Shown piece after piece: positions 1,947 through 46,277 of a stretch of DNA of 50,348 nt. The notes beneath the pieces are model-generated. The model was not told the DNA's origin. It saw only the letters and a program-made list of their open reading frames with translations, and made no database searches. The first letter of the stretch is position 1; the number at the start of each line of letters is the position of its first letter. The position numbers and the translations under genes were made by a program. Source of the stretch: Bacteroidota bacterium (GTDB lineage: Bacteria > Bacteroidota > JABWAT01); assembly GCA_017303995.1 (NCBI GenBank), contig JAFLBE010000031.1, forward strand, positions 1-50,348, written 5' to 3'.

Positions 1947-2141
1947 GTAAATGCCAAATTAGTTGTTGGAAATTTATTGATTCCCCTCCTTCCCAAGGAG
2001 AGCCAGCCCCGAACGCTTTCGGGGGGTGCCGAAGGCGGGGTGGTTTGGTATTTCACCAATTTCCGGTCATTCAACAAACAGCAAATTTCATTCCCTTCGG
2101 GGAGGTACTTTTCACGGGCGAAAAGTACCCAAAAGCCCTGA

Positions 2142-2278
2142 CCGCCGCTTTCCATCTTTGGCTTATGACTGCGTTTCATATCGGAACCCGGCGAACTCAT
2201 CAGGCTTCGCCTGACTCAAACACGCCGGCTTCTTACCGATATTGCACTTGTCATTGGCGCCGATGGAAAGAATGGCGG
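2142..2278 (-). repeat. 137 bp nested fold-back repeat, copy A (reverse)
   Basis: Reverse-oriented copy of the family seen at 11386, 11689, 14682, 14983 and 15307. It is bounded by imperfect terminal inverted repeats (CCGCCGCTTTCCATC ... GATGGAAAGAATGGCGG). Nested stems inside are GTCAT/ATGAC, ATATCGG/CCGATAT, CCGGCG/CGCCGG and an apical TCAGGC-TTC-GCCTGA hairpin. It is followed on its own 3' side by a GGTACTTTT/AAAAGTACC hairpin (2104-2129). Confidence 0.85.
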
Positions 2279-2422
2279 TAAAATGTGGAATGACTTTTTT
2301 CTAGTCAAGCATTTTTTTCGTCTTTCTGCCAGAATCAGGGCAGGTTCCGAAATATGTTTGCATTTTTCCTCGCTCCAGAGGAGCGACCTCTTGGTAGAAA
2401 AAATAGAATTCCAAAACCCAAA

Positions 2423-2470
2423 CCGCCCGGCAAAAAAATTTGAATTCTGGCAGAATCTTTTTCCGGGCGG
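2423..2470. repeat. CCGC-ended stem-loop (CCGCCCGG / CCGGGCGG)
   Basis: A perfect 8 bp inverted repeat encloses a 32 nt loop that itself contains GAATTC-TGGCA-GAATC. It belongs with the elements at 2499-2546, 11122-11168 and 11198-11245, which have the same length and layout but different, self-complementary stem sequences. Confidence 0.65.
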
Positions 2471-2498
2471 AACAGGTACAAATGCAATGTTACTCCTT

Positions 2499-2546
2499 CC
2501 GCACGGAATCTGGGAATCGAAATTAAAAAAATTTGTGGCCGTGCGG
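2499..2546. repeat. CCGC-ended stem-loop (CCGCACGG / CCGTGCGG)
   Basis: Perfect 8 bp inverted repeat with a 32 nt AT-rich loop, lying 28 bp after a sister element. The stem differs from its neighbour at one position and the opposite arm carries the matching change, so pairing is preserved. Confidence 0.65.
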
Positions 2547-2972
2547 TTTTTGCAATGATGATCCTTACCCCGGGTTTTGTAAATCCGGCGACTGACGGAG
2601 ACACCCGGGGCTACCAACATGTCACCCTTTTAACCCGCGACCAATGGTCTTGGGCGCTGGGGTGAGGACTTGCATTTCTGCCAGAATCAGGGCAGGTGCG
2701 GCTGCGAAGGTTCGTGCGTTCCGGAAAGTGACCGAAAGACCCGATCTGTAAAGGGATTAAAACGAACTTTATCCGGTCAGTTTCCGCGGCAAGCGGGACT
2801 TTTGAAACCGCAGGTTTCAAAGGCAAGGAACCTTTGCGTTTGGATTCTGGCGAGCTTTTTCCCCCCTTTTTCCAGAAAAAGGGGGCCGTCGGAGACAAAG
2901 AAATTTTGGTTTTAAAATGAGTTCAGGTAGGACGGAAATGACAAAAGAACTTCAAAAACAACAGAGAACAAC

Positions 2973-3818
2973 ATGAAATCACTTTCAAAAACATCAAAAA
3001 CATGGGTATTCATCATGTCTATCTTCATTCTGAACGCCTGCAGTTCTGCAGAAAAAACAGCTCAGTCGAAACTTGCTGAAGAATTTGCGAGTCAGCCTCT
3101 TCAGCCTGAAACGATTCTGACTTTGGAAGACATTGCCCATCTTCCGAAGCCGGTACAAGCTTATCTGACTTACACGGGGGCCATCGGGAAGGCGATTCCC
3201 CAGAATGTGCGGATTGAGTTTGAGGCGGACATGTTCAATAAACCCGGTGATTCCCCCATGAAAGCCACGTCTACCCAGACCAACTTTTTTGGCAGTTTCA
3301 GCCGGATTTTCCTGATGAAAGCCAGTAAAATGGGACTTCCCTTTCAGGCCAGGCATATTTACAGCAATCAGCAGGCGACTTTTATTGTCCGGGTGGCAAG
3401 TCTGTTCAATGTGGTGGATATCAGCGGAGAGGAACTCACCCGGGCTGAAACGGTGACGGTTCTGAATGATCTCTGTCTGTTTGTTCCGGGCATTCTGGTC
3501 GATAAACGGTTCACCTGGCGGGAAATTGATTCGTTAACCACAGAAATCTCGCTGACCAACGGCGCTTATTCAGTTTCTGCCCTGCTTTTCTTTAACACCA
3601 AAGGCGAACTGATCAGCTTTGTTTCGGACGACCGCTCTGCCCTGCAGGATGACGGTTCCCTGAAAAAAGCCCGGTGGACAACTCCGGTCGGTAACTATAA
3701 AGACATCGACGGCAGAAAAATCCCCACCTACGGCGAAGCCATCTGGAACTACCCGGAAGGCGACTTCACCTACGGCAAATTCAAACTGAAATCCATTGTG
3801 TATAATATAAGTAAATAG
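2973..3818 (+). CDS. DUF6544/DUF6920-like lipoprotein
   Basis: The 281-residue protein has a lipoprotein signal: basic start, hydrophobic IMSIFIL, and lipobox LNACSS with the lipidated cysteine at about residue 23. The mature part opens with LPKPVQAYLTYTGAIG, then SFSRIFLMKASKMGLPFQARHIY, and a C-terminal stretch of WTTPVGNYKDIDGRKIPTYGEA type. This series of motifs is what I recall from the DUF6544 (formerly DUF6920) family, whose biochemical role is unknown. The fold probably carries lipophilic cargo, but that is inference. The protein should sit in the periplasm anchored to a membrane. It stands alone between repeat-rich DNA and the AT-rich island. Confidence 0.6.
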   Translation: MKSLSKTSKTWVFIMSIFILNACSSAEKTAQSKLAEEFASQPLQPETILTLEDIAHLPKPVQAYLTYTGAIGKAIPQNVRIEFEADMFNKPGDSPMKATSTQTNFFGSFSRIFLMKASKMGLPFQARHIYSNQQATFIVRVASLFNVVDISGEELTRAETVTVLNDLCLFVPGILVDKRFTWREIDSLTTEISLTNGAYSVSALLFFNTKGELISFVSDDRSALQDDGSLKKARWTTPVGNYKDIDGRKIPTYGEAIWNYPEGDFTYGKFKLKSIVYNISK

Positions 3819-4372
3819 CTGACGTTTTCTGGTTTCCCTTGGCTGTCATCCCAAATGGCTGTCACCCCCGCGTCGAAGATCCGGCAACCGACGGAGAGGC
3901 GGGGGTCCATCCCTCCGGCATTCCCCCATCTTCCACCAGTGGTTCCCACATCGAAAGACCAACGAAGGAACGATATACAAAGACCAGTCCCAGGTAAACC
4001 AAAAGTGGAAGGCACCTATAAAAACCTCAACAATGTCATCCTCAACTTGATTGGGGATCCATTATAAGGAAAAGAAAAAGGTTTTTAGAGGTGCCCCAAG
4101 CTGAGTCTGGTCTGCATTTCCACACCCAATTGCCCTAAAATAATTGCCTTTCACATAAAATATAGATGAAAACATGTATTTGAATTGACAATAAAATTGC
4201 AAATCTTACAGAATTAAGAAAGGTTGATTCTGGATGGGAATAAGATTACATTTAAGGTATGGACTAAAATATAACTCGAACACGACAAATAAAACACTTT
4301 CTGGTTTTATAAGTTAAATTATGATTTACAAATAGATGAGTAGCAATTTTACCAACGTTAAAAACACGAAAA
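3819..4372. other. Intergenic junction: hairpin repeat, then entry into AT-rich island
   Basis: No gene seen. The left half is GC-richer and holds a CCCCCGC ... GCGGGGG stem-loop (3865-3905) around GTCGAAGATCCGGCAACCGA, a module that recurs inverted at 15222-15258. From about 4040-4080 the composition turns AT-rich and stays so to about 10190. I found no obvious direct repeat or attachment site that would mark an integration boundary. Confidence 0.6.
3865..3905. repeat. CCCCCGC/GCGGGGG stem-loop
   Basis: Perfect 7 bp inverted repeat. The interior sequence (CGAAGATCCGGCAACCGACGG) reappears in reverse complement at 15222-15258, where the stem is CCCGC/GCGGG. Related stems CCCCCGT/ACGGGGG occur at 11602-11642 and 14897-14937. 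Confidence 0.6.
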
Positions 4373-5119
4373 ATGCCAATTATAAGTGAATCAAAATCAT
4401 TTCAAACTTTTAGAAGTGAAATTCAATATCTAAAACAACACTTACAAGTGATTGATGCTAGCTTGTCAAATTCAGGACGATGGTTGGCAAAGTATAAAAC
4501 TAAATCAGACAAGATTACAAAAGCACTTGGAACTGTCGCAAAAAAATACGACACTTTAAACCATCCAGTTTCAGATTTTATTAGGATTTTTAATTATACT
4601 CGTTCTAAAAATGCTGAGTTTTCGATAATTGAGTTATACAATGCATTTTCTGTGTATATGAAAAGCATTTTAACAGAAATGTATAAGCACAACCCAATTC
4701 AAATCGTTGGAAAGGCGATTGGTAATCCAAATTTCACATATGTTGAACTGGTGAAATTTGGTAGTTTTCAAAAGGTAGAAGAGGAAATGATTTCAAAAGT
4801 TTTCAGGAAGCTTGAGGATGAAAAAAGCACAACCAAGTTGTTGGAGAAAATATTAAATCACACAGACATAATCCTTCCTAGCTTATTGAAAACAAATGCT
4901 TTAATGTATTTGGAGATGAGACATTTGTTTATACACAATAACGGGAAAGCGGACGAACAATTTGTAAAAGAATATGGTAGCCTCATATCCGTTAAAGCAA
5001 ACGCAAAATTACCAACTAATTTTGACACTGTAAGTAATGCAATTCAATCTGTTTTCAATCTCATTGAATTTATTGACAAAGAATTGGTAAATAAAAAATT
5101 AGTAGACAAAAGACATTAA
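4373..5119 (+). CDS. HEPN-like protein, putative RNase or defence accessory
   Basis: A 248-residue, lysine- and asparagine-rich, all-helical-looking protein. Residues 183-188 read RHLFIH, an R-x4-H motif in the context EMRHLFIHNNGKAD, which resembles the catalytic motif of HEPN-domain ribonucleases (such as the RiboL-PSP/MAE_28990-like proteins). The N-terminal half (residues 10-60) is charged and probably coiled coil. It is the first gene of the AT-rich island, 287 nt before the methyltransferase and on the same strand, so it could be a companion, toxin or regulator of that operon, or an independent gene. No convincing ribosome-binding site precedes the ATG. The HEPN call is by motif only; a catalytically inert HEPN is possible. 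Confidence 0.5.
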   Translation: MPIISESKSFQTFRSEIQYLKQHLQVIDASLSNSGRWLAKYKTKSDKITKALGTVAKKYDTLNHPVSDFIRIFNYTRSKNAEFSIIELYNAFSVYMKSILTEMYKHNPIQIVGKAIGNPNFTYVELVKFGSFQKVEEEMISKVFRKLEDEKSTTKLLEKILNHTDIILPSLLKTNALMYLEMRHLFIHNNGKADEQFVKEYGSLISVKANAKLPTNFDTVSNAIQSVFNLIEFIDKELVNKKLVDKRH

Positions 5120-5406
5120 AAAAAAACTGGAAGACTATATTTATTGGGTTTGGGACAAACGTTAAATATTAATCATATTTGTTGTTTTCAGACCGTTACA
5201 TACTTTTAAAGTCTAAAATTGCTGAACTCGAAGCGTATTTAGAAACTCATTTTTACATCAGAAATAAACTTGTTTAAAATCAATCGGCATAAATAGAAAA
5301 TTTTCAAAATAATTTTTAAATCTTAAAAATTAAAAAAAACAAAAATAAATGCAATTCCACAACATCTGAAACCAATGTAGTTTGCGGTTTGTTTTACGAG
5401 GTTTAA

Positions 5407-6702
5407 ATGCTCGCGTTTCAGCAACCAGGAAGTATGGAATTTTTACACAGCGATATTGGGTCAGCAAAAGACAATTCAAAAAGCCCAATACATAATTGGT
5501 ATAAGTTCACTGCAGGCTATTCTCACCGTTTTGTTGATGAAATTATTCTTTTGGAGAATCTCAAAAGAAAAAAAAATTCTCAAATTTTTGACCCATTTGC
5601 AGGTTGTGGAACAACACTTGTTTCCAGTCAAAAAGTTGGCATTTCTGCTGTTGGAAATGAGGCACAAGAATTTATGTATGATGTTATCAGAGCAAAGTTG
5701 AATTGGAAACTTGAAGGCTCAGAAGTTAAAAATTATTTACAGTTCATCAAAGAGGAAATGACTGAAGGGGTTGCAGACTTTGACAAGGAAAATACACCTC
5801 ACAAACTATTAAAGACACTTTACACAGAGCAAACACTTTCAAAACTATATTTGATAAAGAAATCAATTTTATCAATAAGTTCATTGAAATATAAATTGTT
5901 TTTTAAGTTGGCATTGAGTCAAACACTTCACAAAGTTTCCATTCATCCTATCGCAGTTCCATATATTTCAAGAAACAAAACCCTTACTCACACAGACGAG
6001 CCATGGGAATTTTTTGAAAGTATAACAAGGCAAATGTTCACTGATACAATAGAGCATTTTGATAAGAAAAAAACTTCGAAAATTTTTTTACATGATTCAA
6101 GAATCCCAAATAAACGAATTGAAGATGGTGAATGCAACATGTGCATTACTTCTCCACCATATTTAAATAATCTTGATTATGGTGAAGTTTCAAAGGTACA
6201 CACGCACTTTTTTGAAATCACAGATAACTGGAATGATATTACTCAAAAAGTAAGACATAAACTTGTAACAGGTGCTACAACTCATTATAGTGATTCAGAA
6301 TTTTTAATTGACGAATTTAGAAAATCAGAATTCTATTTATCAAATAAAATCATTGCTGAAGAACTAATTGCCACTTCAATTACAATTAAAAGTGCAGCAG
6401 AACAAAAATCTGGAAAAAAAAGTTTTGATATTCTGACTCTTCTTTATTTTCAAGACATGTTTGATGTACTGAATGAAATTCGCAGAGTAGTTAGGAGTAG
6501 AAATAATGCATATTTAATTTTAGGAGATTCAGCACCTTATGGTATTTATGTTCCGACAACAGAAATTCTTGGAAGAATTTCGCAAAACATAGGTTTCAGT
6601 TCTTTCAACATTCACAAGATAAGAACAAGGGGAACGAAGTGGAAGACATTAAAACACCGTCATAGTCTTGAATTATCGGAAAATGTTTTAGTATTAAAAT
6701 GA
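5407..6702 (+). CDS. DNA methyltransferase (N6-adenine or N4-cytosine type)
   Basis: 431 residues. Motif I, the SAM-binding loop, is IFDPFAGCGTTL at residues 60-71. The catalytic motif IV, TSPPYLNNLDY, starts at residue 248. The N-terminal SPIHNWYKFTAGYSHRFVDEII is typical of a stand-alone family of DNA methylases with this layout. About 180 residues separate motifs I and IV and could hold target recognition, an alpha-class-like order, although SPPY is commoner in beta-class enzymes. A GAGG lies 6 nt before the ATG at 5407. The next gene overlaps its stop by 4 nt (ATGA). In the operon it probably marks self DNA, or it may modify DNA as a regulatory signal. No restriction endonuclease is recognisable next to it. 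Confidence 0.8.
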   Translation: MLAFQQPGSMEFLHSDIGSAKDNSKSPIHNWYKFTAGYSHRFVDEIILLENLKRKKNSQIFDPFAGCGTTLVSSQKVGISAVGNEAQEFMYDVIRAKLNWKLEGSEVKNYLQFIKEEMTEGVADFDKENTPHKLLKTLYTEQTLSKLYLIKKSILSISSLKYKLFFKLALSQTLHKVSIHPIAVPYISRNKTLTHTDEPWEFFESITRQMFTDTIEHFDKKKTSKIFLHDSRIPNKRIEDGECNMCITSPPYLNNLDYGEVSKVHTHFFEITDNWNDITQKVRHKLVTGATTHYSDSEFLIDEFRKSEFYLSNKIIAEELIATSITIKSAAEQKSGKKSFDILTLLYFQDMFDVLNEIRRVVRSRNNAYLILGDSAPYGIYVPTTEILGRISQNIGFSSFNIHKIRTRGTKWKTLKHRHSLELSENVLVLK

Positions 6703-7709
6703 TTAAGTATATTGACCTTAATAAATCAAGGGAATTTGCACTTCCATTTTTTAATGAGGAACAGGCTAAACTATATTCTTCTTTAGAAAAGGGTTGGAGT
6801 TTTTCTTATGTTTATCATTTTACTGAAATAAAAAATGTTTTCATTGCATTAAAAAATATCCCTTATCAGGGTAAAGACGATTTTACTAGAAAAGCAATTA
6901 ATTCAGGACTACCCTTTGTAAAGACTCCGTGGGATAGCAGAAGAATTTTAGAACAGCTAAATGCACTGATAAATTTTGAACTAATAACAAAGTATTACCA
7001 GATTGAAAGTAATTATTTTATTGAAGATGAATACACAAACAATTTAACAAAGAAGGACATCGAATTATTTTCAAATATTTATCACGAGTATTTTCGATTT
7101 AAAGAAATTCACTCTTGGTTATTAAATCCATTTCAATCTGACCATGCGGGATTTTTAAATCAAGTCACGGCAACCAATTTATCAAAATCTTCAATACCTA
7201 TTTTCCCCTTTTTTATCGAAAACCGGTTCAATGATGCTTTCATTTTTTCATTAACTGACAATACAGATATTTTTAGAATTCCAACCGAAAAATACAATAA
7301 AAATGGTGGACTTATGAGATTTTGGGATGTGTATGTAAAATGGGGTCAAGAATTAAAGTTACTTGAAAAATTTAATCTAAAAAATCTTGATTTTGAACTT
7401 TCAAACAATTTAAAATCACTTTCTTGTGTATACTATGTCAATCAGGAAAAGCCTAAATTTAAATTACTTGATTTTATCAAATCAGAATACAAGGGGAAAC
7501 ATATTCATATCCCAAACTTAGTTTTTAAAATTGCAATTAAAAACAGGTACAGAATAAACGATATAAAAGACTTAATTATACAGCAAGCCTTGGAGGACAA
7601 TAGTTCGTTTAGTCTACAAAGAACTTCAGAGATTTTTATCAGGAACACCGAAATCAATTTTGTGCCAAAATTCAATGATTCATACATTTCACATTTACTA
7701 TTACAATGA
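6699..7709 (+). CDS. Unrecognised protein of the methyltransferase-ATPase-PIN operon
   Basis: 336 residues, rich in Phe, Asn, Lys and Ile, with no signal peptide, membrane segment or cysteine cluster. I do not recognise the family. A stretch around residues 75-130 (TPWDSRRILEQLNALINFELITKYYQI) looks like a winged-helix segment, as in DNA-binding or adaptor subunits. The C-terminal part is also helix-rich. It overlaps the methyltransferase stop by 4 nt and the ATPase start by 4 nt, so it is translationally coupled to both and very likely a structural part of the same system. It could be a specificity subunit or a divergent nuclease; I see no catalytic triad that I would defend. Confidence 0.6.
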   Translation: MIKYIDLNKSREFALPFFNEEQAKLYSSLEKGWSFSYVYHFTEIKNVFIALKNIPYQGKDDFTRKAINSGLPFVKTPWDSRRILEQLNALINFELITKYYQIESNYFIEDEYTNNLTKKDIELFSNIYHEYFRFKEIHSWLLNPFQSDHAGFLNQVTATNLSKSSIPIFPFFIENRFNDAFIFSLTDNTDIFRIPTEKYNKNGGLMRFWDVYVKWGQELKLLEKFNLKNLDFELSNNLKSLSCVYYVNQEKPKFKLLDFIKSEYKGKHIHIPNLVFKIAIKNRYRINDIKDLIIQQALEDNSSFSLQRTSEIFIRNTEINFVPKFNDSYISHLLLQ

Positions 7710-9043
7710 CTGAAAACACAGACAACAATCTACTAAAAAATCTGTTGGCAAACAGAGGAATTAAATCCGATCCATCAATGCAATATTCAAAGTTGGGATT
7801 ATCATTTAACCCATTTCCAAGAGCAGGAATTTCCGATTTAAACAGTACACAATATTTAATTGGACGATTAGAACCGATTGATGAGGATGTAAAAAAAGGT
7901 ATTGAGGAATTTATTATTGATTCCCTCTCGCTTCAAAATATTATATCAAAAGATAAATATATTAGTGCTGTTATACACGGAGATTATGGTTTAGGAAAAA
8001 CTCAGACATTACTTTATGCAAAATATATCCTTGAATTGTTTAACCAGAATAATGAATTAAACAAACGACCGTATGTTGTTTACATTGATAATCCAGGTGC
8101 AAAGCTCAATGAATTAATTGGAGCAATAATTTCACAAATTGGTGAGGAAAATTTTAAACGCTATTTATGGAACATTGCATTTGAAACGATTGCAACAAAT
8201 AAATCCTTTAAAGAGGAATTAATTAAATTTCGACCTAGGGGAATTAGTTTATTCGATGATGTTACGGACCCTTTTGACCCAGTTAATCTTGTTAGCTATA
8301 AATCCTTTTTAGACGCTTGGTATTCAAAAATTCTATACGCTGATCAAAAAAAGAAAAGGGAATTTCAAGACAAGCTAAAAGGTATTGTCGTTTCAATTTT
8401 TACAACTCACTTTGACAATACAACAATTGCCATGTATTTCTATGATTTACTTTCAGAGAATATTGGAATAAATAAAACATGGGAAGCCCTAACCTCTGGC
8501 AGTGCAAAAGAGTTAGACAAAAAAGAAGTTTTCATTATTCGTGCGATTGTAAAATTAATTGAGTCTCAGGGCTACACTGATTTTTTTATTTTGGTTGATG
8601 AGTTTGAAAATGTTACAGCAGGTCGTTTGTCACAAATAGAAATTGATAGATATGTAACTAATCTGCGGGCATTGATTGATAAAGAAAGGAATTGGTGTTC
8701 GTTGTTTGCAATGACACCTCCAGCCTTACAAAGACTAAAATCTGTATCACCGCCATTGGCGGAGAGAATTAGCAGCAGAATAATTGATTTAAAATCTTTA
8801 AATGACGTGAGAGCAAAATCTATTGTTCTAAACTATCTCAATCTTGCTAGAGAGGAATCTCAAAGTTTATTTCCTTTTGATGAGACTGCTATATCCGCAC
8901 TGAGGAAAAAATCTCACGGAATTTTAAGGGTATTTCTTAAAAGTTGTTTTTCTTTTATTCAAAGAGCATCGGAGGAATTAAAGGAAGGCCAATTAATAAA
9001 CGAACAATTTGTATCCCACCATTTTCAAATAGAAGAAGAGTAA
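7706..9043 (+). CDS. AAA+ ATPase, Orc/Cdc6- or BREX-ATPase-like
   Basis: 445 residues. Walker A is GDYGLGKT at residues 92-99. Walker B is FFILVDEF with the acidic pair D298/E299. A sensor-1-like segment (SLFAMTPPAL) follows, then an arginine-containing LAERISSRI that could supply the Arg finger. The N-terminal LGLSFNPFPRAGI resembles the opening of Orc/Cdc6- and ExeA-like ATPases, and the overall shape also recalls ATP-binding proteins of BREX systems. The C-terminal 80 residues look like a winged-helix lid. Start and stop lie close to the neighbouring genes (4 nt overlap upstream, 8 nt gap downstream). It probably senses or remodels DNA and switches the PIN nuclease next door; that is inference from context. 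Confidence 0.75.
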   Translation: MTENTDNNLLKNLLANRGIKSDPSMQYSKLGLSFNPFPRAGISDLNSTQYLIGRLEPIDEDVKKGIEEFIIDSLSLQNIISKDKYISAVIHGDYGLGKTQTLLYAKYILELFNQNNELNKRPYVVYIDNPGAKLNELIGAIISQIGEENFKRYLWNIAFETIATNKSFKEELIKFRPRGISLFDDVTDPFDPVNLVSYKSFLDAWYSKILYADQKKKREFQDKLKGIVVSIFTTHFDNTTIAMYFYDLLSENIGINKTWEALTSGSAKELDKKEVFIIRAIVKLIESQGYTDFFILVDEFENVTAGRLSQIEIDRYVTNLRALIDKERNWCSLFAMTPPALQRLKSVSPPLAERISSRIIDLKSLNDVRAKSIVLNYLNLAREESQSLFPFDETAISALRKKSHGILRVFLKSCFSFIQRASEELKEGQLINEQFVSHHFQIEEE

Positions 9044-9051
9044 TTTTCAGA

Positions 9052-10134
9052 ATGGAACCATGGAGTGACTTACTACCAGTAAGGGAAAGATTTAGAATTA
9101 AGTTTTACCTTGATACTAACATACTTGTATACTTAGTTGATAATACTTATTCTGGTGTTTTACAAACAATAAACTATTTAAAGGATTCTAATTTTTCTGA
9201 TTTAGTAAGTTCAAAATATGTAATCTTTGAATTTGTAGGAATCCGAAAAAAGGAACACTATTTGAGAGCTGTCGTAAGTAGCGGTGGGCTCCATGTCAAC
9301 ATGAGTTCTCTACTCAAGTACCGTGATGATTTTAATGCATCTGAAGTGGATTTCAATTCTGTCAAAACTGCAATAAAGCAGAAAGTTATGCAAGAACTAG
9401 AAGAAATCACAAACAACTTTGGAATTGAATATGAAAGAAATATCCTTCATGATTCTTTGCTAGCACCGACATTTGATATTACTCTTAGCACAAAAATTTC
9501 GCGTCATGATGCATTGATGTATGTTTCTTCCGTATGGGGTGATGCTGAATTAAAAGAGGAATATGTTTTCGTTATAAGTAACGACCAAGGTTTTGTTCAA
9601 AATTGCTCTGATGAAGAAATTGACATTGCTTTACAAAATCACAATTTGCAAAAGCCACAAGTAGAGTGGATCAGATCAATGCAAGAAAATGATGTTCATA
9701 GATTAAATTTAACAGTTCCTGAAGATGATGTTCACTTAACCAGTTTTTTACCTAGTAAACTTAAAGAGCTAATCATAAAAAAGAATAACAAATTTTTCTT
9801 AGGAAAAACTATTCAATGTGGCAACGGTGCCAGATTCCCTACAGATGTGGTCTGTTTCCGGCTTCCAGCAAACACCGAATTGCAGAGCAACTTATACTTG
9901 ACAATTATTGGAAGAGATTTAGATTTTATTTACTCAACTAAACTTCCAGTGTCTGATTTTTGGGATCAAATACCAATTAATAATTATCCTTTTCATAAAC
10001 CAGATGCTACTGACATTTCATTTAGACCAATGGAGGATAATTATGGAACCCCGTCTCCGCTACCTACGAATGTTATTAGTCGGTTAAGGGAAAGTGGTAA
10101 TCTCGTTTTCATTAACCCAGACGGAAACGTATAA
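9052..10134 (+). CDS. PIN-domain nuclease, effector candidate
   Basis: I take the start at ATG 9052, 8 nt after the ATPase stop; an in-frame start at 8944 would lie inside the ATPase gene and is unlikely. The 360-residue product opens with a PIN core: FYLDTNILVYLVD (D21), VIFEFVGIRKKEHYLR (E60), SRHDALMYVSSVWGD (D153) and VFVISNDQGF (D178). These four acidic residues fit the metal-binding site of PIN RNases. The extra C-terminal half (about residues 200-360) is not recognised and could be a beta-rich substrate- or ATPase-binding domain. This is the last gene of the operon and the most likely effector, cutting RNA or single-stranded DNA. It is longer than toxin-type VapC proteins (about 130 residues) and lacks a VapB-like partner. 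Confidence 0.7.
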   Translation: MEPWSDLLPVRERFRIKFYLDTNILVYLVDNTYSGVLQTINYLKDSNFSDLVSSKYVIFEFVGIRKKEHYLRAVVSSGGLHVNMSSLLKYRDDFNASEVDFNSVKTAIKQKVMQELEEITNNFGIEYERNILHDSLLAPTFDITLSTKISRHDALMYVSSVWGDAELKEEYVFVISNDQGFVQNCSDEEIDIALQNHNLQKPQVEWIRSMQENDVHRLNLTVPEDDVHLTSFLPSKLKELIIKKNNKFFLGKTIQCGNGARFPTDVVCFRLPANTELQSNLYLTIIGRDLDFIYSTKLPVSDFWDQIPINNYPFHKPDATDISFRPMEDNYGTPSPLPTNVISRLRESGNLVFINPDGNV

Positions 10135-10256
10135 TACAAACTCCTCATTTTTTAAAATTTTATTTTCATTAAAGTAGCGACGGTTTAAAGGTTCGTGCAA
10201 GAAACCCCACCCGAACTCAAAGCTTGAAATCGTCCGATCCAACCAACCCAATTATT

Positions 10257-10769: not shown

Positions 10770-10870
10770 AGATTTGGTTTCTTTTTCACTTTTCAGATAA
10801 ATAACCAATTAAAATTTCTTTCCCTTCGGGGAGGTACTTTTCACGGGCGAAAAGTACCCAAAAGCCCTGA

Positions 10871-11039
10871 CCGCCCACCCGCTCTATGACTTGCAACTGG
10901 CACTCCGGCCCTGATCGAATCTGAACTCAGTCGGCAGTAGCCTCCTTCAAACACAGATTCGATTTAACCGGGCATGGAGTAGGTTGCTGAGCCTGCCGAA
11001 GCATGGTTGTCCCGAAAATCGGGAACCGGCTGACGGCGG
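10871..11039 (+). repeat. R2 repeat, copy 1
   Basis: 169 bp element bounded by CCGCC ... GGCGG, near-identical over most of its length to 14413-14574 in the same orientation. Inside is a perfect 10 bp stem ATCGAATCTG (10914-10923) / CAGATTCGAT (10954-10963). The two copies differ mainly in a short segment near the 3' end, where this copy has a CCCGA-TCGGG hairpin. Confidence 0.8.
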
Positions 11040-11385: not shown

Positions 11386-11522
11386 CCGCCATTCTTTCCA
11401 TCGGCGCCAATGACAAGTGCAATATCGATCAGAAGCCGGCGTGTTTGAGTCTGGCGAAGCCCGATGAGTTCGCCGGGTTCCGATATGAAACGTAGTCATA
11501 AGCCAAAGATGGAAAGCGGCGG
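11386..11522 (+). repeat. 137 bp nested fold-back repeat, copy B
   Basis: Forward copy, exactly 137 bp between CCGCC and GGCGG. The apical loop has TCTGGCGAAGCCCGA, a slightly mismatched version of the family hairpin. It is followed by the hairpin CCGACTTTTG-TGCCGT-CAAAAGTCGG (11535-11560) and a CCCCCGT/ACGGGGG stem (11602-11642), the same order as in copies D and E. Confidence 0.85.
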
Positions 11523-11688
11523 AAAGGCATTTTGCCGACTTTTGTGCCGTCAAAAGTCGGTCCCCGAAGGGAAAGAGAAGTAATGGAAACGGTGGGATGG
11601 ACCCCCGTCTTCCAGTCGGGTGACTGATTTTCAACACGGGGGTGACATTACAACATGGCATGAGTAAAAAAATCAATTCCGTCTTTTA

Positions 11689-11827
11689 CCGCCATTCTTT
11701 CCATCGGCGCCAATGACAAGTGCAATATCGGTTAGAAGCCGGCGTGTTTTGGGTAGAGACGTTGCATGCAACGTCTCCCGGGTTCCGATATGAAACGCAG
11801 TCATAAGCCAAAGATGGAAAGCAGCGG
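11689..11827 (+). repeat. 137 bp-family repeat, copy C, with replaced apical hairpin
   Basis: Outer and middle stems match the family, but the tip is replaced by a different segment carrying the perfect 20 nt palindrome AGACGTTGCATGCAACGTCT (11757-11776), flanked by GGG/CCC. Total length is 139 bp. The downstream hairpin is lost here, and the sequence instead runs into a CCTGAGCGGAGTCGAAGG repeat (about 11868-11886). Confidence 0.8.
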
Positions 11828-11972
11828 AAAGGGCTTTTGCCGATCCCGAACGTTGAAAACCTGGTATCCTGAGCGGAGTCGAAGGACGGCCTTTGACGGG
11901 CTTTCTGGATTGGCTAATTCTTCCCCATTATTAATACCCCAGTTGAGATAAAACGTTCTTCCCCTATTGTAC

Positions 11973-12003
11973 TCGTCCCAAATATTCACTAAATTTGGGA
12001 CGA
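11973..12003. promoter_or_regulatory. Perfect 11 bp inverted repeat, probable AbiEi operator
   Basis: TCGTCCCAAAT (11973-11983) and ATTTGGGACGA (11993-12003) are exact reverse complements separated by 9 nt, ending 54 nt before the AbiEi-like start. AbiEi-type antitoxins are known to repress their own operon by binding inverted repeats in the promoter, so the position fits an operator. A role as transcription terminator for upstream DNA is possible, since the right arm is followed by AAAATAAAAA, but there is no upstream gene on this strand within 1.2 kb. Confidence 0.55.
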
Positions 12004-12057
12004 AAATAAAAACCATGGATTCAATTAAAGCAAATTTCCGTAAGCAGATTAATCGAA

Positions 12058-12660
12058 ATGGAACGACCTGTAGTAGAAAATAAAATTGCCGATGTGCTGA
12101 AAACACAATTAAAAGGAAGTGTCCTTTTTGTGGACGATTTCTTAGACTATGGAAATCCCGAAAGTGTTAAGAAAGCCTTGTTAAGATTGAAAAAAAAGGG
12201 AATACTTGTGCGCCTGGCTCACGGTATTTACTTTTATCCCAAAATTGACAAGGATTTAGGAGTTCTGTTCCCTTCAACCGAAGATATTGCAAAGGCAATT
12301 GCCAGACGGGACAAAGCCAGAATTGTCCCAACCGGAGTTCATGCATTGAATAAATTAGGTTTATCGACCCAGGTCCCAATGAAAGTAGTCTATCTAACTG
12401 ATGGAGCAACAAGGAGCGTTAAAATTGGAAAACGAACCATAGTTTTCAAAAATACAAGTCCAAAAAACTTATTGACGCAGGGTGAAATAAGCAGTTTGGT
12501 CATTCAGGCTTTAAAATCTATTGGTCAGTCAAAAGTAGATAATGAAACGATTTCGAAAATCCACTCGATTCTAAAAAAAGAGAAGACAGAGAATGTGTTG
12601 AAAGATGCAAAACTGGCACCAGCCTGGATAAACAAAATATTAGTACAATCCATTCGATGA
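12058..12660 (+). CDS. AbiEi-like antitoxin / DUF6088 transcriptional regulator
   Basis: 200 residues. The N-terminal part reads as a winged helix: FVDDFLDYGNPESVKKALLRLKKKGILVRLAHGIYFYPK (residues 22-61), where a KGI-hydrophobic-R-hydrophobic-GIY string is the usual wing of AbiEi/DUF6088 antitoxins. The second domain (residues 62-200) matches DUF6088 in length and pattern (PTGVHALNKLGLSTQVP, FKNTSPKNLL). The stop codon overlaps the start of the AbiEii-like toxin by 4 nt, the classic type IV abortive-infection arrangement. A perfect inverted repeat upstream (11973-12003) is a likely autoregulatory operator. The pair stands between arrays of fold-back repeats, away from the AT-rich methyltransferase operon. 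Confidence 0.75.
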   Translation: MERPVVENKIADVLKTQLKGSVLFVDDFLDYGNPESVKKALLRLKKKGILVRLAHGIYFYPKIDKDLGVLFPSTEDIAKAIARRDKARIVPTGVHALNKLGLSTQVPMKVVYLTDGATRSVKIGKRTIVFKNTSPKNLLTQGEISSLVIQALKSIGQSKVDNETISKIHSILKKEKTENVLKDAKLAPAWINKILVQSIR

Positions 12661-13664
12661 ATACCAATTGGCTAACCTTATCAAAGGAAAGAAGAATTGA
12701 CATTCTGAATCAGGCAACAGAATTAACTGGTTTGCCATCAGTCGCAATTGAAAAAGATTGGTGGGTAACGTTGGCATTGAACGCTTCGTTTTCATTGCAA
12801 TACAGCAAAAACATGGTTTTCAAAGGCGGAACATCTTTGAGTAAAGGATGGAATCTGATAGAAAGATTTTCAGAAGATATTGACCTGGCAATTGACAGAA
12901 AGTTTTTCGGTTTTGATGGCGACATCAGTAAGAGTCAAATCAAAAATCTAAGAAAACAATCCTGTGAATTTATTTCAACGACTTTCCTGGCAGATTTAAT
13001 CCACACCCTTATTGAATGGGACGCAATAGAGGAATGTAAACTCAATGCTCAACCTGTAAAGGATTCAGACAAGGATCCACAAATAATTGAAATACATTAC
13101 AATTCAGTTATTGACACATCGGAGTATTTACAACAAAGGGTTTTGATTGAAGTAAGCTCACGGTCAATGATAGAGGCGTTTGAGGAAAGAAAAATCAACT
13201 CGATTTTAAGTGATAATTTTAACGGCCAAAGTTTTGTAACCTCTCCATTAGCAATACCAACTGTGCTTCCGCAAAGAACATTTTTAGAAAAGATATTCCT
13301 GCTTCACGAAGAATTTTCACTGGAACCAGGGAAAATCAGAATCGACAGATTGTCAAGGCATTTGTATGACCTTGAAAAATTGATGGACACAGAACATGGG
13401 ATTAACGCATTTGTAAACAAAGATTTGTTTACAAATATAGTTGAACACAGAAAAAAGTTTAATCCATTGAGAGGACTTGACTATTCTGATCATATTCCAG
13501 GTAAAATATGCATCACTCCACCGGACGAAGTAATGAAAGATTACGAAAGAGATTATGAAGTCATGACTGGATTTATGATTTACGGTGAACCATTAAAATT
13601 TGACCAGCTACTGAAAAGAATTTCGGAATTGCAAACAAGAATAAATGAAATCAGCCTTCACTAA
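12657..13664 (+). CDS. AbiEii/AbiGii-family nucleotidyltransferase toxin
   Basis: 335 residues. The nucleotidyltransferase signature is visible as VFKGGTSLSKGW (residues 58-69) followed by RFSEDIDLAI (about 74-83); the G-G-[ST]-x9-13-D-x-D core is catalytic in AbiEii. The middle contains the basic segment DRLSRHLYDLEKLM, typical of the family. The toxin in known pairs transfers nucleotides to tRNA or another target and arrests growth, and the upstream AbiEi-like protein represses the operon. The ATG overlaps the antitoxin stop (ATGA), implying coupled translation. Length agrees with the family, and both key motifs are intact, so the toxin looks functional. Confidence 0.8.
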   Translation: MNTNWLTLSKERRIDILNQATELTGLPSVAIEKDWWVTLALNASFSLQYSKNMVFKGGTSLSKGWNLIERFSEDIDLAIDRKFFGFDGDISKSQIKNLRKQSCEFISTTFLADLIHTLIEWDAIEECKLNAQPVKDSDKDPQIIEIHYNSVIDTSEYLQQRVLIEVSSRSMIEAFEERKINSILSDNFNGQSFVTSPLAIPTVLPQRTFLEKIFLLHEEFSLEPGKIRIDRLSRHLYDLEKLMDTEHGINAFVNKDLFTNIVEHRKKFNPLRGLDYSDHIPGKICITPPDEVMKDYERDYEVMTGFMIYGEPLKFDQLLKRISELQTRINEISLH

Positions 13665-13794
13665 AAGTAAGTCAATTTGAAATTCAGATGAACCAACGAA
13701 AATTGTAAACATTGAATATACCTTCCAACTCTCCTGCCCTTTCCATTTCCAACGATCCACTATTATCTTTATTAGAAATAAAAAAAGGAAACGT

Positions 13795-14235: not shown

Positions 14236-14412
14236 TTTTAAATTCCCCCTCCAACGGAGAGCCTGTCCCGCTATTGCGGGAGGGTAAGGGGGTGGGTCAT
14301 TCTTTTCATCCTAACTTTCTATTAAACTACCAAACCGATTTCGTTTTTCTTCGACGACCCCCTTTTGACTGGCCAAAAGGGGCAACCCTTCGACTCCGCT
14401 CAGGGTCCGTTA

Positions 14413-14574
14413 CCGCCCAGCCGCTCTGTGACTTGCAACTGGCACTCCGGCCCTGATCGAATCTGAACTCAGTCGGCAGTAGCCTCCTTCAAACACAGAT
14501 TCGATTTAATCAGGCACGGAGTAGGTTGCTGAGCCTGCCGAAGCATGGTTGCTACGTCGAGTGGCTGACGGCGG
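14413..14574 (+). repeat. R2 repeat, copy 2
   Basis: 162 bp direct copy of 10871-11039 with the same CCGCC/GGCGG ends and the same internal ATCGAATCTG/CAGATTCGAT stem. The CCCGA-TCGGG hairpin of copy 1 is replaced by TACGTCGA. The two copies bracket a 3.4 kb segment containing the AbiE pair and the SRPBCC gene. Confidence 0.8.
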
Positions 14575-14681
14575 TTGGAAACCAAAACCTTCAAGGTTTT
14601 CTTGATTATTTGCACTTGCCCTGATTCTGGCAGAAAGACAAAAATAAACGGTTGTGGTGTAAAAGGAGATTCCGTCTTTTA

Positions 14682-14818
14682 CCGCCATTCTTTCCATCGG
14701 CGCCAATGACAAGTGCAATATCGATCAGAAGCCGGCGTGTTTGAGTCAGGCGAAGCCTGATGAGTTCGCCGGGTTCCGATATGAAACGCAGTCATAAGCC
14801 ATAGATGGAAAGCGGCGG
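14682..14818 (+). repeat. 137 bp nested fold-back repeat, copy D
   Basis: Forward, exactly 137 bp, with the intact apical hairpin TCAGGCGAAGCCTGA. Followed by CCGACTTTTG/CAAAAGTCGG (14831-14856) and CCCCCGT/ACGGGGG (14897-14937). Confidence 0.85.
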
Positions 14819-14982
14819 AAAGGCATTTTGCCGACTTTTGTGCCGTCAAAAGTCGGTCCCCGAAGGGAAAAGATGTTTCGGAAACGGTGGGATGGACCCC
14901 CGTCTTCCAGTCGGGTGACTGATTTTCAACACGGGGGTAACAATACAACAAAACCTGAGTAAAAAAGCCATTCCGCCTTTTA

Positions 14983-15119
14983 CCGCCATTCTTTCCATCG
15001 GCGCCAATGACAAGTGCAATATCGGTCAGAAGCCGGCGTGTTTGAGTCAGGCGAAGCCTGATGAGTTCGCCGGGTTCCGATATGAAACGCTGTCATAAGC
15101 CAAAGATGGAAAGCGGCGG
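14983..15119 (+). repeat. 137 bp nested fold-back repeat, copy E
   Basis: Forward, exactly 137 bp, 301 bp after copy D in tandem. Followed by CCGACTTTTG/CAAAAGTCGG (15132-15157) and then by a different CCCGC/GCGGG stem (15222-15258) in place of the CCCCCGT one. Confidence 0.85.
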
Positions 15120-15306
15120 AAAGGCATTTTGCCGACTTTTGTGCCGTCAAAAGTCGGTCCCCGAAGGGAAATGAAGTTTTGGGAAACGGGGGGATGGATG
15201 AGCTTCGCAGAACTTCGTTAGCCCGCCTTTCCGTCGGTTGCCGGATCTTCGACGCGGGAATGACAATAAATGGGGGTCTGAGCTAAAAAGGCCATTCCTC
15301 ATTTTA

Positions 15307-15443
15307 CCGCCATTCTTTCCATCGGCGCCAATGACAAGTGCAATATCGGTCAGAAGCCGGCGTGTTTGAGTCAGGCGAAGCCTGATGAGTTCGCCGGGTT
15401 CCGATATGAAACGTAGTCATAAGCCAAAGATGGAAAGCGGCGG
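15307..15443 (+). repeat. 137 bp nested fold-back repeat, copy F
   Basis: Forward, exactly 137 bp, 324 bp after copy E. Its downstream hairpin is the other type, GGTACTTTT-CGCCCGTG-AAAAGTACC (15456-15481), the same as in reverse copy A. Confidence 0.85.
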
Positions 15444-15633
15444 AAAGGGCTTTTGGGTACTTTTCGCCCGTGAAAAGTACCTCTCCGAAGGGAAATGAAG
15501 TTTTGGGAAACGGGGGATGGATGAGCTTCGCAGAACTAAGTTAACCGGATCAGGTCGGGGATGACAGCCGTTAAAAAGCCGGTGAGATGGACCCCCGTCT
15601 TCACGTGGATGACATGAAAAGTTTTCCTAAAAA

Positions 15634-45317: not shown

Positions 45318-46277
45318 TTATCTGTTATCCATCCTATTGATCAGATTTTTAAAGAACGTTCCACCTTGTTGGGGCGCAGGAGCAGGATTTGGCTGTGGAG
45401 CCGGTGCTGGAGCCGGTGCTGGCATTGGTGCAGGTGGCGCGGCCTGTGGCACAGGTGCCGGTGCAGGTTGCGGAACTGGTGCTGGAGCTGGCATCGGTGC
45501 AGGTGGTGCGGCCTGTGGCATAGGTGCCGGTGCTGGTTGCGGAACTGGTGCTGGAGCTGCCATCGGTGCAGGTGGTGCGGCCTGCGGTATAGGTGCCGGC
45601 GCTGGTTGCGGAACTGGCGCTGGAGCTGGAGCCGCCTGCGGTGTTGGAGCAGGTGCAGATGAAGGCTGAGCACCAGGTTGTGGTGCAGGACCTGCAGGCT
45701 TGTTGATACGCGCCAATGTTTCACGGCTGATTGCTTTAAGAACTTCAAAAACCCCAATATTTTTGATAACGGAAGCTTCAACAGCAGGTACGTTATTCGG
45801 ATTCAGATTTTTGTTCAATTCTTCAACACTGTAAACATTCTGAAGATCACGCTTATTGTACTGAAGAACAATAGGGAAATTATTCAGATCTATGCCGTAT
45901 TCTGCAAGGTTATCTCGAAGGTTTTGAAGAGATTCAATATTCTCATTCATTTTGCCTACACCTGAGTCAGCAACAAAAACAACACCATCAACTCCTTTTA
46001 ACACGAGCTTACGGGTTGCATTGTAATAAACCTGACCAGGTACAGTGTACAACTGGAACTTGGTATTAAAACCCTTTACACTTCCCAAATTCAGGGGAAG
46101 AAGGTCAAAGAAAAGTGTCCGGTCTGCCTCTGTGGCAAGGGAAATCATATTTCCGCGGGTATTATCAGGTACGTTCTGGTGAATAACCTGAAGATTGGTC
46201 GTTTTACCGCTCAACCCTGGCCCGTAATAAACAATCTTTATTACAATTTCTCTGTTTGCATAGTTAATTGATGCCAT
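45318..46277 (-). CDS. mglA: MglA-type small Ras-like GTPase with Pro/Ala-rich repeat tail
   Basis: 319 residues; canonical MglA is about 195. Residues 1-193 form the GTPase: P-loop GPGLSGKTT (19-27), TEADRTLFFDLLPLNLG (switch I with the MglA-specific TLFFD), PGQVYYNATRKLVLKG (G3, 80-95), NKRD (141-144). Residues 194-304 are a low-complexity Pro/Ala/Gln tail with three near-perfect 23-residue units (Q232, Q255 and Q278 mark the period). The last 14 residues, GTFFKNLINRMDNR, are a potential amphipathic helix. MglA controls cell polarity and surface motility in Myxococcus with the GTPase activator MglB and the Frz chemosensory system. Here it is the last gene of a Che-like operon, 52 nt after a roadblock gene. 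Confidence 0.9.
   Translation of the reverse strand: MASINYANREIVIKIVYYGPGLSGKTTNLQVIHQNVPDNTRGNMISLATEADRTLFFDLLPLNLGSVKGFNTKFQLYTVPGQVYYNATRKLVLKGVDGVVFVADSGVGKMNENIESLQNLRDNLAEYGIDLNNFPIVLQYNKRDLQNVYSVEELNKNLNPNNVPAVEASVIKNIGVFEVLKAISRETLARINKPAGPAPQPGAQPSSAPAPTPQAAPAPAPVPQPAPAPIPQAAPPAPMAAPAPVPQPAPAPMPQAAPPAPMPAPAPVPQPAPAPVPQAAPPAPMPAPAPAPAPQPNPAPAPQQGGTFFKNLINRMDNR
45375..45650. repeat. 69 bp in-frame tandem repeats coding the MglA tail
   Basis: The DNA of the MglA tail contains a 69 bp (23-codon) tandem repeat with partial copies at both ends and few differences, mostly silent or in a single residue. The low divergence implies recent duplication or gene conversion, so repeat number may vary between strains. 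Confidence 0.75.

Follow-up and report, generated by a model that had tools for sequence, protein, structure and literature searches.

The intergenic DNA of a 4.31-Mb draft genome of a Bacteroidota bacterium (G000) contains a repeat of about 200 bp which we consider, with a probability of roughly 60%, to be a non-autonomous, hairpin-forming DNA element that is ERIC/MITE-like in its behaviour and whose most likely active form is folded single-stranded DNA. The repeat was recognized in a contig of 50,348 nucleotides (contig C53), which was analysed at its full length and is referred to here as the window. Its copies share a covarying fold, they are present or absent at orthologous sites, they have exchanged hairpin tips and in one instance a copy has lost its apex by deletion.

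Copies in the window and in the genome

The first-pass annotation of the window had listed six copies, five of them exactly 137 bp long, and both blastn and the sequence bore this out. Copy D (14682..14818, +), the reference copy for blastn and folding, shares 97–98% identity (blastn) with the other 137-bp copies, namely copy A (2142..2278, −; 98% identity), copy B (11386..11522, +; found by blastn and covariance model), copy E (14983..15119, +; 301 bp after copy D) and copy F (15307..15443, +; 324 bp after copy E). Copy A scored 146 bits with R1, a covariance model built from copies of G000 and of genomes G002 and G003. At a spacing of 303 bp from copy B is copy C (11689..11827, +), which is 139 bp long and 86% identical to copy D (R1, 91.6 bits) and carries a REP-like palindrome, GTAGAGACGTTGCATGCAACGTCTC, in place of the apical module. 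The covariance model added two inverted, diverged copies of a second subfamily, one of 141 nt (10870..11010, −; R1, 35.4 bits) and one of 164 nt that is inverted with respect to copy D (14412..14575, −; R1, 46.4 bits). The window also holds imperfect tandem repeats of another family (D3; 45390-45629), which overlap an ORF at 45318-46277.

Copies proved to lie outside the window as well when, as the first-pass annotation had proposed, they were counted genome-wide: copy D gave 10 blastn matches, and R1 found 30 places in G000 at E<0.01, including the second subfamily. Blastn located at least 12 places in G002, which belongs to the same genus; contig ends truncate five of these, so that short-read assembly undercounts the copies and the figure is a lower bound. 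Contigs C6, C8, C12, C15, C23 and C28 of G002, and several contigs of G003, end in or near an element, which makes the repeat a systematic cause of assembly breaks. Some copies are paired divergently, with about 50 bp between them (L092, L093). All copies examined were intergenic, and gene decay was rejected since none of 87 copies or clusters was overlapped by, or lay within, an ORF of at least 200 aa. Convergent gaps were somewhat over-represented (21/80 vs 22/165).

Fold, covariation and a second domain

The unit is an irregular long hairpin of about 137 nt with the base CCGCC/GGCGG and a conserved asymmetric apex, in which a variable hairpin stands between TGTYTGAG and CGAGTTC; most lineages also have a GTTAAA bulge. 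The nested stems described in the first-pass annotation all pair, except that in copy D ATATCGG reads ATATCGA and one pair is lost. Copy D folded better than 200 of 200 dinucleotide-preserving shuffles (z-score −6.8 with parameters for RNA and −5.3 with those for DNA), and the folds of the window copies have z-scores of −5 to −7. Thirteen 137-bp copies, taken from two species, varied at 11 of 94 stem sites and at 11 of 43 loop sites. Compensatory double changes were found at 28 of 43 pairs by RNAalifold (11 copies, two genera). When 57 copies were aligned to R1 (set A2), 41 of 44 pairs had double compensatory changes and 93.7% of cells were paired, against 62.8% after shuffling (0/500); sliding the partners by 1–3 columns as a register control brought pairing to 29–45%. 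A further 55 copies from other taxa were collected with the apical motif pattern (set A3), the fold having been derived without them, and here too 41 of 44 pairs had double compensatory changes, with 91.4% of cells paired vs 58.0% shuffled (0/500), both alignments being fitted to the model. The conservation of the apical motif in A3 is partly due to its use as the search pattern; the same unpaired apex is also found in copies recovered without that pattern. The first-pass annotation had named an absence of covariation, stems no better conserved than loops and copies confined to the window as findings that would tell against it, and the reverse was found on all three counts.

Directly downstream of each unit there is a second covarying hairpin, absent from the first-pass annotation. 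It has the form xxxxCTTTT..AAAAGxxxx, stands 10 to about 60 nt downstream and has a loop complementary to bases just upstream. In copy D (domain at 14819..14870, +) the stem is CCGACTTTTG/CAAAAGTCGG, the loop TGCC (14841-14844) pairs with GGCA (14822-14825) and a terminal mini-hairpin, TCCCCGAAGGGA, follows. The domain of copy B (11523..11574, +) has the same stem and the same GGCA/TGCC pairing. Those of copy A (2090..2141, −) and copy F (15444..15494, +) have GGGTACTTTTC and GAAAAGTACC as stem with GGGC/GCCC, and that of copy E lies at 15120..15171 (+); the domain of copy A was assigned from sequence and complementarity. Further loop/upstream pairs seen are TGGG/CCCA, AGGA/TCCT, GGGA/TCCC and CTTGAT/ATCAAG. 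The longest loop/upstream complementarity, averaged over 57 distinct copies, was 3.53 nt, compared with 2.82 ± 0.11 nt when loops were swapped among copies, and none of 2000 loop-swap trials reached the observed mean. In single-stranded form the second domain is an H-type pseudoknot.

DNA element or RNA

The first-pass annotation had suggested that the repeat is mobile or active as RNA and not a decaying gene. Dispersal, presence or absence at orthologous sites and structure-preserving evolution uphold the mobile part of this suggestion; the RNA-active part is not supported. According to the RNA reading, the long hairpin and pseudoknot would be transcribed as an sRNA or a protein-binding RNA that multiplies as a useful or selfish sequence. 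The conserved asymmetric loops, the tandem-GA-like apex and the covarying pseudoknot speak for it, as conserved unpaired motifs with a pseudoknot would fit an RNA too, and so does the stronger z-score with RNA than with DNA parameters. Moreover, BRE, a superficially similar repeat of Betaproteobacteria, overlaps the sRNAs bprJ1 and bprJ2 (PMC3110155). Compensatory base-pair changes, a criterion for non-coding RNA, are present but are equally expected of a DNA hairpin.

The types of base pair argue otherwise. With the conserved apical U-G pair excluded, G-T made up 61 and A-C 31 of 2,261 stem cells in A2, and 41 and 38 of 1,759 in A3, so that G-U amounts to only about 3% of stem cells and is nearly balanced by A-C. 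In 15 tRNAs from the fetched loci, a small control obtained with ARAGORN, which favours well-paired tRNAs, 33 of 323 pairs (about 10%) were G-U and none was A-C. Since each A-C reads as G-T on the complementary strand, the repeat shows almost the same pairing pattern on both strands, as palindromic DNA would. More columns contain G-T than A-C (28:16 in A2 and 22:13 in A3), a point in favour of RNA which we regard as a weak pull to the stated strand. In co-directional gaps the elements show no sense bias (22 lie sense to the genes and 22 antisense), reading the upstream flanks by eye revealed no shared promoter, and stems change through replacement of whole tips. Rfam gave no match in the window at the gathering threshold and, at E<1, a single chance-level match at the element copies (E 0.61, 20 bits vs a cut-off of 46). 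The repeat looks like a DNA-level element, and we consider a structured RNA unlikely. Strong covariation alone is no proof of a functional RNA.

Mobility and exchange of hairpin tips

The gap between nuoD and nuoC (names based on reading the protein sequences) is 457 bp with an element in G000 and 53 bp in G001, and G003 gives a near-contiguous match. A G000 copy situated between two operon genes is missing in G002, as is the element which G000 carries in the acr3-arsC gap. The nuoD/nuoC gaps of G000 and G002 have near-identical flanks and three hairpins with wholly different self-complementary tips (L085 6750-7260 vs L104 280-760), and in one of these swaps a REP-like hairpin replaces the apex of the element. 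Copy F and its orthologue (G002:C23:4414-4550) share 98.5% identity over the 137-bp core, with neighbouring DNA about 90% identical, and in G002 a different self-complementary set has taken the place of all second-domain stems, pseudoknot included. Block replacement of this kind accounts for part of the covariation.

Deletion between direct repeats is the usual outcome of hairpin instability, and one G000 copy has lost a 70-nt apex between AGCC direct repeats. Only two copies, L188 and L161 of Desulfobacula, showed clear terminal inverted repeats (CTGGATATTTGC or a variant of it) together with target-site duplications, the flanking direct repeats being AGGTACAA and AGCTTAAAAC, 8 and 10 bp long; looking for an autonomous partner by exact terminal repeat gave only three matches in the Desulfobacula maris genome. 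Clean ends were not found for the G000 copies because their gaps hold several repeat types. Presence and absence, tip swaps, the apical deletion and the terminal inverted repeats together favour a mobile, hairpin-forming DNA element. It flags gaps prone to insertion, and the loci with exchanged hairpin tips form natural pairs.

We hypothesize that the single strand, where exposed, for example on the lagging strand, would fold, and that its unpaired motifs may mark the strand for a putative recombinase or a replication-linked process. Such a process would spread copies into intergenic gaps, duplicate them in tandem and swap whole hairpin tips. Folding in the cell, a single-stranded intermediate and an enzyme are all presumed here, and any benefit to the host would likewise be conjectural. 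It is tempting to go further and to propose that these repeats are selfish hairpin DNA, an ancient family that spans phyla and whose apical and pseudoknot hairpins are cut and swapped in place as whole units by a dedicated, putative single-strand recombinase. We think this improbable; if it were true, the RNA-style covariation would be the footprint of hairpin exchange.

As regards a mobilizing enzyme, no transposase was identified and no neighbouring gene was common to the copies. One candidate is a RAYT (Y1 tyrosine transposase), which would make the repeat a REPIN or REP element. The intergenic palindromes do occur as inverted pairs and tandem clusters, Y1_Tnp genes are present in 32 of 40 element-bearing genomes, and both copy C and its C24 relative contain nested REP-like hairpins tagged with GTAG. 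However, the other eight genomes, all at least 97% complete and including the many-copy genomes G239, G003 and G393, are without Y1_Tnp (PF01797), and no element was found in the fetched surroundings of 28 Y1 genes. Furthermore, the element has no GTAG/CTAC foot, is three to five times as long as a REP and contains GTAG in the nested insertion only. With both co-occurrence and adjacency failing, a RAYT is strongly disfavoured as mobilizing partner, and we give this explanation very little credence. GTAG-tagged REP-like palindromes (GTAGAGACGTTGCATGCAACGTCTCTAC and kin) also stand alone in the same genus (L089 5270-5420, L112 near 4700).

Distribution among bacteria

A covariance model from a wider set of copies (R2) found the element in 39 of 392 Bacteroidota genomes, belonging to 21 of 178 genera (E<0.001), and the motif pattern recovered the same architecture in Ignavibacteria and Desulfobacterota. 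Carriers include Draconibacterium, Ancylomarina, Gramella, Amniculibacterium, Melioribacteraceae and Desulfobacula. Tandem arrays with a spacing of 330-470 nt occur in one genome (G211), and another (G239) has an array of nine copies over 23 kb. Blastn with the window copy gave no match in phages and plasmids; with other copies, at least seven places were found on a plasmid of Ilyobacter polytropus (Fusobacteriota), and the two places read share the apex and the pseudoknot hairpin. IMG/VR holds one genuine copy (L199). These findings suggest that mobile palindromic DNA of this class is widespread and, as judged from literature other than that of subscription journals, apparently without a name. 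With this range the element, which is absent from Rfam, would be among the widest-ranging bacterial intergenic repeats, extending over Bacteroidota, Ignavibacteria, Desulfobacterota and Fusobacteriota.

Accessory genes between elements

Genes lying between elements in the window include a methylase and a BrxC/D-like ATPase (5407-9043) and AbiE-type genes (AbiEi/AbiEii, 12058-13664). Gene content at 2300-10241 and 11827-13725 is wholly unlike that of G002, which has HerA/RmuC-type genes and an orphan ORF. A segment of about 1.2 kb (733-1930) with a flavodoxin/4Fe-4S gene (882-1946) is missing at the syntenic G002 site (L101 8545-8589). In the G239 array (G239:C2:303-326 kb; L253, L254) the nine elements are interleaved with small accessory genes encoding Fic, DUF4143 and DUF234 ATPases and HigBA-like proteins, and near-duplicate DUF234 ATPase genes adjoin two of the elements (G239:C2 319997-321346 and 324787-326136). 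Fic proteins with AbiEi-like N-termini, 48% identical to one another, are encoded near elements in two distant Bacteroidota (L092 11405-12886 and L253 14693-16210).

One possible explanation is that the repeat is a recombination site which flanks and shuffles gene cassettes, as does the structure-recognized, strand-specific attC site of integrons. A fold kept while the sequence varies would fit, as would the G239 array, where eight of the nine copies have the same orientation, the differing genes between elements at one locus of G000 and G002, and the related Fic genes of distant genomes. On the other hand, the copies are dispersed along the chromosome and occur in either orientation, inspection showed no GTTRRRY/RYYYAAC core at copy ends, and a look through the ORFs listed for the G239 array turned up no integrase. 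Nor do the immediate neighbours share a family or show one clearly enriched relative to genes further away: Pfam and PADLOC scans of 125 adjacent and 120 more distant proteins gave no dominant family, defence and toxin–antitoxin families included, so that the cassette idea is only anecdotal. The congeners of G239 are too diverged in DNA for cassette junctions to be mapped. A cassette-shuffling site seems to us highly improbable; the accessory genes suggest insertion-prone gaps and are not proof of cassette exchange.

Comparison with known repeat systems

Fold-based recognition, as in integron attC sites, would account for stems that covary while unpaired motifs stay fixed, although the element differs from attC in having no core sites, in its dispersal in both orientations and in having no integrase noticed nearby. 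It resembles the REPIN and REP sequences associated with RAYTs in being a non-autonomous extragenic palindrome, in pairs or clusters, with predicted single-stranded DNA hairpins (PMC3116915, PMC3733652), yet at about 137-200 bp it is longer than REPs of 20-40 bp, has no GTAG foot and neither requires nor adjoins a RAYT. BRE (PMC3110155), compared by description, is likewise intergenic, scattered, variable in tandem number and suspected to be mobile, with some copies transcribed, but it is about 75-91 bp long, GC-rich and reported in Betaproteobacteria. The BrickBuilt MITE of Porphyromonas gingivalis is likewise a repeat of a Bacteroidota species and has been described with inverted repeats and an internal tandem array (PMC4596501).

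The ERIC or RU-1 sequence of enterobacteria, of 127 bp, has been described as small, mobile and MITE-like (PMC2759123). Both ERIC and the present element are dispersed, imperfect palindromes of about 130 bp found in many intergenic regions. The element differs in its conserved apex, its pseudoknot domain, its multi-phylum range and the lack of detectable sequence similarity, blastn against 5,426 E. coli genomes having given no match. The kind of repeat is known from ERIC, REPIN, BRE and MITE-like sequences, and the family is a member of none that could be tested; it works most like ERIC and MITE repeats but is a different family.
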